This document shows positions 33,625 through 47,704 of a stretch of 64,000 nt of DNA, piece after piece. The notes beneath the pieces were generated by a model, which was given only the letters and a program-made list of their open reading frames with translations, was not told where the DNA came from and did not search any database. The position numbers were made by a program, and so were the translations under genes. The stretch comes from Thioalkalivibrio sp. ALJ21 (GTDB lineage: Bacteria; Pseudomonadota; Gammaproteobacteria; Ectothiorhodospirales; Ectothiorhodospiraceae): positions 806,001 to 870,000 of the forward strand of contig NZ_KB905155.1 in the NCBI RefSeq assembly GCF_000378605.1. Reading direction: 5' to 3'. How positions within the stretch are numbered: the stretch's first letter is position 1; each line of letters starts with the position of its first letter.

Positions 33625-34530
33625 ATGCGCACAGGACGCGGCCTCCTACTCGGCGACTTCCTCGACACCACCAATCACAAGGACAAGCTGATCGCCCTGA
33701 TCGGGGCCGTGATCGGTCTGTATCTGTCACTGGAGGTCGCGGCCTCGGTCACCGAAAGCGGCATTAACGGGCTCATCCTCGCCTCCCTGGGGGCTACCGC
33801 CGTCCTGCTCTTTGCCGCACCCCGGGCCGCGCTGTCCCAGCCCTGGAATGTCCTTGGCGGGCACGCCATTGCCGCCATTGTGGGGGTTGCTGTCCGGCAG
33901 GCGGTGGACCACCCGCTGGTGGCAGCCGCGCTGGCGGTCGGCCTCACCGTCTATGCGATGTACTACTTGCGCTGTCTGCACCCCCCCGGGGGTGCCACGG
34001 CCCTGTATGCCGTGGTCGGCGGGGCCTCGGTCGAGGAACTCGGCCTGCTGTTCATCCTGCACCCGGTGCTCTCCAGCGTGGCCGTGATGCTGATGGTCGC
34101 CATCGTGATCAACTACCCGTTTCCATGGCGCCGCTACCCGGCCGCCCTGGCGCGTCTGGACGAACCCTCGCCCGCCGGACCATCCGGTGCACTGGAACGT
34201 GCGGGCCTGAGCCAGGCCGACCTGGAGCACGCGATGCGCGATCTTAATTTGTATCTCGACATGACCGAGGACGACCTGGCCCGCCTCTATCTGCTGGCAC
34301 GACGCCACCACGAGCACCCGGACGCGATCGATCCTGCGGATATTCGACCCGGACAGTGCTACAGCAACGGCGCCCAGGACCACGCCTGGAGCGTGCGCAA
34401 GGTCCTGGCGCGAGATGGCGAGCTGATCACGTATCGCGTCATCAGCGGCGCGGGCGTTCCCGAGGAAGGCCGCTGCTCCGTGACGGACTTTGTTGCCTGG
34501 GCACACCATCGCCTGGACGCTCCAGGGTGA
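33625..34530 (+). CDS. HPP-family membrane protein with C-terminal soluble domain
   Basis: A 301-residue protein. The N-terminal ~165 residues form about four membrane segments with the HPP signature CLHPPGGATAL near 115 and are preceded by SLGATAVLLF. The C-terminal ~130 residues (ERAGLSQADLEHAMRDLNLYL onward) are soluble and end in a small beta domain (GQCYSNGAQDHAWSVRKVL). HPP proteins include chloroplast nitrite transporters, but most bacterial members are uncharacterised. Monocistronic. Confidence 0.83.
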   Translation: MRTGRGLLLGDFLDTTNHKDKLIALIGAVIGLYLSLEVAASVTESGINGLILASLGATAVLLFAAPRAALSQPWNVLGGHAIAAIVGVAVRQAVDHPLVAAALAVGLTVYAMYYLRCLHPPGGATALYAVVGGASVEELGLLFILHPVLSSVAVMLMVAIVINYPFPWRRYPAALARLDEPSPAGPSGALERAGLSQADLEHAMRDLNLYLDMTEDDLARLYLLARRHHEHPDAIDPADIRPGQCYSNGAQDHAWSVRKVLARDGELITYRVISGAGVPEEGRCSVTDFVAWAHHRLDAPG

Positions 34531-34605: not shown

Positions 34606-34682
34606 GTCTCCGTAGCTCAGCTGGATAGAGCAGCCCCCTCCTAAGGGGCAGGTCGCAGGTTCGAATCCTGCCGGGGACACCA
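34606..34682 (+). tRNA. tRNA-Arg (anticodon CCU)
   Basis: A 77-nt tRNA with full acceptor pairing (GTCTCCG with CGGGGAC, including a G-T pair). The anticodon stem GCCCC/GGGGC encloses CTCCTAA (anticodon CCT, reading AGG), the T-arm is GCAGGTTCGAATCCTGC, and CCA is encoded. A rare-codon tRNA whose 3' end is often used by integrative elements; a 264-bp inverted-repeat element starts 23 bp downstream. Confidence 0.97.
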
Positions 34683-34705
34683 CCTTCCATTAGCGTTTCC
34701 TTATT

Positions 34706-34969
34706 GAAGCACTGATCAACGTACACGCTCGCGTTGGCACCCCAGGTTTTCCGAGACAAGGCGCGGTGCGCAGCGGGTAGTGGTTCTACCAGCACGTGCC
34801 GCAACACAGGATCGGGGAACCTGGGGTACCAACCCCGAAGGGGCTCGGCCGCTTTTGCATGCGCACGGCGTTGCGACTCCCTTGTGCAGAATGACTGCAC
34901 GGCAGTCGCCGCGCCTTGTTCGCATGCAAGAGCGACTCGAGCGCGAGCGTGTACGTCGATCAGTGTTTC
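34706..34969. repeat. 264-bp element with 28-bp terminal inverted repeats (MITE-like)
   Basis: The ends 34706-34733 and 34942-34969 are inverted copies matching at 26 of 28 positions (core GTACACGCTCGCG). Inside are nested inverted repeats: GGCACCCCAGGTT (34736-34748) with AACCTGGGGTACC (34818-34830), and ACAAGGCGCGG (34756-34766) with CCGCGCCTTGT (34909-34919). No gene is carried. It fills nearly all of the 332-bp gap 34683-35014. A related short version lies at 45429-45499. It could be a non-autonomous mobile element or a folded RNA; the sequence alone does not decide. Confidence 0.8.
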
Positions 34970-35014
34970 CTTAACGAACTGGTGTCGGCGCAAAATCCGC
35001 CGTAAGGTACGTCA

Positions 35015-35341
35015 ATGGCGACGCTCACCACGGAACAGGCCGAACGGCTGGTCGATCTCCTGGCCCCACTGATCGGGGTGCAGGGGGAAGTCGATGGCCG
35101 CATGGTGGAACTGGTCGAGGTCCTCGACGAAGGTCCCCGCGGCGAGCCGGGTATCGCGTTGATGGAGACCGGCCTGGACCGCCCGATCCAGGCCAATCAG
35201 TACGGCGACCCGCTTTCGCGGCATTCGCTGGTTCGTACCCTGCCGCTGCTATCCGAGGTCGAACGCGATGTCCACCCAGTGCTGCGCCAACTCCTTCCCG
35301 AGGACGTCCTGACGGATCTGCGCCGGGCGCTCGGAAACTGA
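35015..35341 (+). CDS. Small conserved-looking protein of unknown function
   Basis: A 108-residue acidic, helical protein (starts MATLTTEQAERLVDLLAPL; contains LMETGLDRPIQANQYGDPLS and ends LTDLRRALGN). I do not recognise it. Third codon positions are strongly G/C, as in neighbouring genes, which supports real coding. AAGG lies 8 nt before the ATG. Its last 93 bp overlap the 3' end of the tesA-like gene on the opposite strand. It follows the inverted-repeat element. Confidence 0.6.
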   Translation: MATLTTEQAERLVDLLAPLIGVQGEVDGRMVELVEVLDEGPRGEPGIALMETGLDRPIQANQYGDPLSRHSLVRTLPLLSEVERDVHPVLRQLLPEDVLTDLRRALGN

Positions 35342-36016
35342 AACCGCGTCGTCCAGACAGGCTTCTATCCCGCGCATCATGGGCTCCAGGTGGGGCCATA
35401 CCGCATCCAGCATGTAGGGCTGCGCCTCGGGCGTCGGATGGATACCGTCATCCATGATCATCCCGTCGCGAAAGGCGACCTCGTGCAGGAAGAACGGCTC
35501 GAACACCAGCCCGCGTTCCCGGGCCAGATCGGCGAAGACGGCCTCGAACCGCTGACTGTACTGGGGGCCATAGTTGGGCGGAATGCGGATCCCGAGCAGC
35601 AGGGTCTGGGCGCCCGCCGCGTCGATCGCCTCCAGCATCGCCTCCAGGTTCTGGCGCATGGCCCGTGGCGACAGCCCGCGCAGGCCGTCGTTGCCCCCCA
35701 GGGCCAGGATGACGAGGTCGGGGCTCTCGCGTTCAAGAACCTCCGGCAGGCGTTCGCGTCCCCCGGCCGTCGTCTCGCCACTGATCGAGGCATTCGCCAC
35801 GCGCCAGGGATGGTTGCGCTCGCTCAGACGCTCTTCCAGAAGCCCCACCCAGCCTTCCGCATCGCTCATCCCGAATGCCGCGCTCAGGGAATCACCGAAC
35901 ACCAGCACCTTCGCGGGTTCTTCCCCTGAATTTTCCGAGCTGATGGAATTCGCAAGGCCAAGCGGACTCCATAGCAACGCGAGCCACGCAATAATGACCA
36001 GGGAATAACGCCACAT
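35249..36016 (-). CDS. tesA: TesA-like multifunctional acyl-CoA thioesterase / lysophospholipase / arylesterase
   Basis: A 255-residue SGNH hydrolase with a signal peptide ([22 protein letters not shown]). Block I is VFGDSLSAAFGM (catalytic serine), block II ANASISGETT, block III ALGGNDGLRG and block V DDGIHPTPEAQ (catalytic Asp-His). The family usually ends shortly after the PHLEPM stretch; here ~40 extra residues follow and overlap the opposite-strand small gene. Periplasmic. AGGA precedes the ATG at 36016, inside the divergent ybbA coding region. The tesA/ybbA/ybbP arrangement is the same as in E. coli. Confidence 0.93.
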   Translation of the reverse strand: MWRYSLVIIAWLALLWSPLGLANSISSENSGEEPAKVLVFGDSLSAAFGMSDAEGWVGLLEERLSERNHPWRVANASISGETTAGGRERLPEVLERESPDLVILALGGNDGLRGLSPRAMRQNLEAMLEAIDAAGAQTLLLGIRIPPNYGPQYSQRFEAVFADLARERGLVFEPFFLHEVAFRDGMIMDDGIHPTPEAQPYMLDAVWPHLEPMMRGIEACLDDAVSVSERPAQIRQDVLGKELAQHWVDIAFDLG

Positions 36017-45428: not shown

Positions 45429-45499
45429 AAGGGAAGCACTGATCCATGTACACGCTCGCGCCCGAGCGCGCCCGTGTACATCAATCGGTGCATCCCTGG
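45429..45499. repeat. Short hairpin repeat related to the 34706-34969 element
   Basis: A ~70-bp imperfect inverted repeat (GGGAAGCACTGATCCATGTA ... TACATCAATCGGTGCATCCC) sharing the core GCACTGATC-GTACACGCTCGCG with the ends of the element near 34.7 kb, as if its two termini were joined. A further half copy (GAGGAAACGCTGATTGAG) lies near 47679-47697. It sits in the gap between the radical SAM gene and the macrodomain gene. Confidence 0.75.
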
Positions 45500-47638: not shown

Positions 47639-47704
47639 GGGATCCTGGAAGAGTCGCGGGAGCCCTGGCGGCTCCATTGAGGAAACGCTGATTGAGTCTG
47701 GCAA

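Follow-up and report, generated by a model that had tools for sequence, protein, structure and literature searches.

The 266-bp nested inverted repeat at positions 34705-34970 of the window, the 64,000-nucleotide stretch of Thioalkalivibrio DNA analysed here, very probably belongs to a MITE family that has been moved in trans by a DDE transposase of the IS5 type. A sequence-only reading of the same DNA had described a MITE-like element of 264 bp at 34706-34969. The element stands with these corrected bounds, and so do the 26 matches counted over its 28-bp arms (from 34706) and the nested inverted pairs (37-nt arms, 86%; inner pairs of 22 nt, 86%, and 17 nt, 88%). The repeat finder stretched the arms to 37 nt because a solo inverted end at 34689-34700 adjoins the left target copy; this solo end is better kept in the related genomes G041 and G040 than in the window. 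A tRNA-Arg gene indeed lies upstream, at a spacing of 22 nt instead of the 23 bp given before. The core of the window copy lies in the 'GTTGG' orientation and all three hairpin tips have the short form. The parts of the locus are as follows.

34606..34682, plus strand: tRNA-Arg (CCT), a neighbour outside the element
34689..34700, minus strand: inverted remnant of a solo end, adjoining the left target copy on its outer side
34701..34704, no strand: left presumed copy of the 4-bp target duplication, TTAT here and TTAA in G041 and G040
34705..34970, plus strand: complete MITE copy, 266 bp (inverted-repeat search, fold, copy alignment)
34705..34733, plus strand: left arm, terminal inverted repeat, 29 bp (inverted-repeat and end-match search); the outermost 12 bases, TGAAGCACTGAT, form a decayed end
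34733..34833, plus strand: core side hairpin 1, tip A in short form, outer pairs 34733-34754 with 34812-34833
34834..34843, plus strand: small central hairpin, tip B in short form
34844..34941, plus strand: core side hairpin 2, tip C in short form, including 34850-34866 paired with 34918-34934
34942..34970, minus strand: right arm, 29 bp, with the intact end GGAAACACTGAT (inverted-repeat and end-match search)
34971..34974, no strand: right presumed copy of the target duplication, TTAA

An HPP-family membrane protein (PF04982) is encoded upstream of the tRNA gene (33625-34530) and a GDSL lipase downstream of the element on the other strand (35249-36016).

The element belongs to a large dispersed family, as had been proposed. 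In its own genome (G000) a 23-base arm pattern gave 87 matches at up to 3 mismatches and 0 in the reversed control, and at least 44 full-length dispersed copies could be parsed and aligned, a lower bound since 40 of 89 candidates were scored (one partial duplicate parse, L019_-1596, was removed from 45). Single-copy status is rejected on these counts. Full-length copies measure mainly 265/266, 280/281, 295/296 or 310 bp. These steps of 15 arise because each of the three hairpin tips has a short and a long form; tip forms were called by pattern, which left some tips undecided. The family was found in 16 of 30 genomes of the genus and in 0 of 17 others of the bacterial family (47 genomes in the order search), and 0 of 15 genomes of other families matched. 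Where genomes were named, the best 80 of 106 matching stretches, a set from which the own genome may be missing, were all Thioalkalivibrio, and the MITE has so far been found only in Thioalkalivibrio-type genomes. We found no description of this repeat family in the literature, in which subscription journals were thinly covered. Some copies carry a second arm type on the same core (GGAGACGCTGATTGAATCGC...). It stands at both ends (GGAGACGCTGATT..AATCGC...) in L026, L028, L080, L103, L104 and L105, and the four such copies that were aligned have the same core as the rest of the family. The lack of coding capacity noted before is confirmed: copy lengths differ by single bases and the differences between copies have hardly any 3-base periodicity, on which grounds a coding element is rejected. 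Two frames are open over at least 80 codons in 115 and 110 of 137 copies.

The reading as a non-autonomous transposon is borne out by the many copies, by 4-bp duplications, by empty sites and by an IS5-type element with the same ends. The 4 bases that adjoin each end favour YTAR, and left and right 4-mers agree above permutation in all four genomes compared (p 0.0016 in G000, 0.0002 in G041 and 0.006 in G004; 0 of 5000 permutations as good in G040), with exact identity in only 11 of 44 copies in G000 and 10 of 39, 10 of 37 and 5 of 17 in the other three. Comparison of 160 kb of G000 with 160 kb of G041 revealed empty sites both ways. Of two complete copies in G000, G041 lacks one and retains a single CTAG; of three complete copies in G041, G000 lacks one, and in this case the duplication is imperfect.

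The likely parent, as judged by its ends, is an IS5-type insertion sequence of about 1200 bp that is held by related genomes, e.g. at L144, L155 and L158. At loci of the L155 and L158 type the 1200-bp element has the ends GGAAACGCTGATCAATGG and GGAAACACTGATTTATT; the ends of the candidate parent are also given as GGAAACRCTGATCAATGG and GGAAACACTGATTTATT. It is flanked by GTAG on both sides in L158 and by TAAG on both sides in L144, a YTAR-like 4-bp target as in the MITE. Its 321-aa product belongs to the IS5 family (NF033581, 319 bits against a cut-off of 140; also PF01609/PF05598). The first 12-17 bp of the ends match between MITE and IS, with at most 17 bp common with one IS end. In contrast to the MITE, the IS measures about 1.2 kb and carries a transposase gene, and pairing between its ends extends little beyond 12 bp, against 28 bp for the MITE arms. 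PF05598 is present in 10 of 30 genus genomes, and IS DNA matches occur in 9 of 30, in five of them at full or nearly full length (G040, G010, G022, G021 and G012). The own genome gave no match to the IS DNA query among the 14 of 56 candidates scored; as this genome is full of MITE copies, the two elements share no long interior. Neither PF01609 nor PF05598 was found there, which counts against current mobilisation from the own genome. In the mechanism we favour, the IS5-type transposase would recognise GGRAACRCTGAT at both ends of the MITE, which the two elements share, and would insert it at YTAR-like sites with duplication of 4 bp.

The family also has reduced members. The hairpin near 45.4 kb that had been said to share the ends of the element does carry the family arms, without a core, whereas the 'half copy' near 47.68 kb is weaker than claimed.

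45432..45495, plus strand: core-less member, two arms only, 64 bp
47681..47698, plus strand: 18 bp, possibly what is left of a solo end, similar to the alternative arm type of L148

At the counterpart of the 45.4-kb site G041 has the same left flank followed by a full element of about 282 bp, but the right flank that matches is displaced by about 350 bp; in G040 the site carries a short hairpin. With up to 2 mismatches allowed, the window contains 8 end-like matches where 2.05 are expected, so the 47.68-kb site alone proves little. In G040, a pair of ends with slightly different arms spans about 310 bp at L148:450-759, and a full IS5-type element lies 4 bp away. A bare 22-bp palindrome of two fused ends (GGAAACGCTGATCAGTGTTTCC) adjoins TTAG at L029:2602-2623 and is apparently the smallest family remnant.

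Orthologous copies show that arms and core change differently. We compared orthologs across the four genomes (44, 39, 37 and 17 copies parsed), and a check of the flanks left 29 shared sites. The copies retrieved include an ortholog for 25 of the 44 in G000. At these 29 sites the arms persist. The core has changed length at 17, mostly in 15-nt steps, and is inverted between unchanged flanks at 4, the window site among them. The flank-checked set itself gave 16 length changes and 3 inversions, and the window site adds one of each through G040, where it spans two sequence stretches, was missed in the ortholog pairing and is counted separately. There, the same flanks and arms enclose a core that is inverted and 15 nt longer. 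Over 69 orthologous pairs the divergence is 0.029 in the arms, 0.045 in the core and 0.052 in the flanks, and core length differs by at least 10 nt in 34 pairs. This set still includes two L092 pairs whose unmatched immediate flanks keep them out of the 29 sites; a half-matched pair was kept out. Between orthologs, core differences are overdispersed and lie in blocks. The variance/mean ratios for the six genome pairs, which stand without a flank control, are 6.6, 10.8, 2.5, 10.3, 4.3 and 4.6, that is, 6.6 to 10.8 among G000, G040 and G041 and 2.5 to 4.6 in pairs with G004. For the arms the ortholog was nearer in 100 of 134 directed comparisons, the own-genome paralog in 13, and 21 were equal; for the cores the ortholog was nearer in 55, the paralog in 76, and 3 were equal. 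The count for the cores is suggestive only, as a minimum over many paralogs is biased. No donor core was traced: for the 22 most changed pairs, even the closest core of the own genome has 4-25 differences. Many copies are old residents. Their outer arms stay and slowly lose pairing, whereas their cores change in blocks and sometimes flip between the arms; the most likely process is recombination or gene conversion that involves other copies.

The two arms of a copy resemble each other far more than arms of different copies (1.55 against 5.17 mismatches of 28; 0 of 2000 permutations as low). In 60 ortholog pairs that agree in core orientation and differ at no more than 4 of 56 arm positions, 47 arm differences were one-sided and 2 two-sided. 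Since changes between orthologs are nearly all one-sided, in-place conversion from arm to arm is rejected as the source of the matched arms. Equally close paralogs gave one- and two-sided counts of 292/96 (G000), 272/147 (G041) and 186/59 (G040), which share copies and are not independent. The matched arms appear to be set when a copy is made and not maintained in place, with room left for slow compensation in place. One would expect copies without a detected ortholog to be younger and to have better matched arms. This was not seen in any of three genomes: mean mismatches in copies without and with a detected ortholog were 1.71 and 1.44 in G000, 2.50 and 1.14 in G041 (including one copy with 20 mismatches that is probably misparsed) and 1.71 and 1.60 in G040, which argues against a simple clock of decay since insertion.

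Genes are not arranged evenly around the element. Using gene calls from a simple codon-position G+C script, which is crude, we found reading frames that end flush with the 5' side of the core at 39 of 92 sites, with the 3' side at 11, with both at 8 and with neither at 34 (39 against 11, p 9e-5); tandem gene contexts are 39 ++ against 13 -- (p 0.0004). Both the shared sites (14:3) and the copies for which no ortholog was detected (25:8) show the bias, which is absent among the G040 representatives (6 vs 5). In many cases the flush stop codon is supplied by the target as TAG (18) or by the end as an internal TGA (16). Copies settle flush behind genes and leave the genes unbroken, probably because target sites often overlap a stop codon. 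This bias of the core towards the direction of the adjoining gene keeps transcription in play; selection against antisense copies or the direction of replication could each produce the bias as well. For replication, dnaA lies at the start of G040 C1, a search for a dif pattern found nothing, and 25 of 40 G040 matches, counted by eye, run with the fork if the terminus is opposite, so that a replicative origin of the bias keeps a place among the explanations. A pure parasite does not predict an orientation bias, which counts against our preferred explanation. In that explanation host transcripts probably carry the element as a genomic parasite in their 3' tail, where the antisense orientation would be somewhat disfavoured.

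The same bias speaks for a rival explanation, a structured RNA, either free or as an ERIC-like 3' untranslated tail, selected for its fold and spread by the transposase. The fold is indeed very stable (-180.7 kcal/mol for the window element, whereas shuffled sequences average -105.7; z -15, a value that 0 of 200 shuffles reached), at least one copy has changed on both sides in 30 of 87 consensus pairs, and ERIC orientation matters for mRNA stability according to the accessible part of PMC2229807. However, both strands of the element fold equally well. Under selection for an RNA fold, the sense strand should tolerate G-U pairs but no A-C pairs. We counted only pairs present in the folds of both strands, as pairs of one strand are biased by construction. 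No excess of G-U over A-C was seen: 44 own copies gave 42 G-U and 43 A-C cells over 61 inner pairs and 12 and 37 over the 28 outer pairs, the A-C excess in these arm pairs coming largely from two of them (8 and 14 of the 37 cells). The G-U:A-C cells over 137 copies were 128:184 inside and 49:129 in the arms, and 59:88 and 24:57 over the 60 copies that a gene enters from the 5' side alone. Since A-C is G-T on the other strand, the test speaks against selection on the sense strand only. In ortholog arm pairs, one change led from one Watson-Crick pair to another, against 65 to non-Watson-Crick pairs, 15 of them G-U. An Rfam family is rejected, as neither the window nor three loci searched separately gave a match over the element, the three loci having weak hits only. 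A tRNA lies within 600 bp of the element at 1 of 56 loci scanned (L001 only). A tRNA-linked element is thereby rejected, and the proposed read-through from tRNA-Arg, while possible, concerns a neighbour peculiar to the window copy. Together with the absence of the bias from the G040 representatives, these results make the structured RNA suggested by the sequence-only reading rather unlikely.

A switch, in which a dedicated invertase flips the core between arms that serve as its recombination sites, we hold to be very unlikely. Two 28-bp arms around about 210 bp do resemble known invertible segments, and the four inversions between conserved flanks fit such a system. However, at 3 of the 4 sites the inverted core also differs in length, by at least 14-16 nt, which exchange with other copies would predict, and no promoter-like site turned up in a simple scan of the window copy. 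Palindromes of the REP/REPIN type, moved by a RAYT (HUH) transposase, have the flanks of the MITE on their side, which are often CTAG or GTAG, and Thioalkalivibrio genomes carry GTAG-type REPs according to the accessible part of PMC3733652. Set against a tagged palindrome of 20-40 bp, the size of about 260-310 bp with long paired arms, the agreement of the flanking 4-mers and a DDE parent with the same ends leave this origin extremely improbable. A more far-reaching version of the IS5-driven MITE is a doubtful proposition at present: transposition would re-template both arms from one arm through a fold-back intermediate, and the resident arms would act as 'sockets' that exchange and flip pooled cores, with the transcribed orientation favoured. 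If true, the family would be one of shuffled-core, gene-tail cassettes instead of a passive MITE.

With the likely IS5-type parent, an abundant Thioalkalivibrio repeat family is now tied to a transposase. Its many orthologous copies separate initial differences (the matched arms) from later change (the core), and make the origin of matched arms testable. They also carry a warning, in that paired changes in MITE hairpins are no proof of RNA function.

The closest precedent for the inversion is found in the Correia (NEMIS) elements of Neisseria, which the accessible parts of PMC10969869 and PMC2229807 describe as MITEs with ends of about 24 bp, a stable hairpin and a place beside genes. In-place inversion, common to both families, has already been reported for them there, above all in PMC10969869. 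Correia elements have TA at their termini and contain promoters, according to the same parts of these sources, whereas the Thioalkalivibrio MITE has GG...CC ends inside YTAR-like 4-mers without TA termini, and a branched core with tips in short and long forms. ERIC (IRU) elements of enterobacteria are likewise intergenic palindromic MITEs whose orientation matters, as the part of PMC2229807 available to us states. They differ in their 127 bp and TA termini, and the orientation effect seen here is a statistical bias in position only. QMITE2 of Coxiella shares ends of 23-29 bp and a strong fold with our family, judging from the accessible part of PMC10969869, and differs in its direct repeats of 7-9 bp and its shorter core of 113-145 bp.
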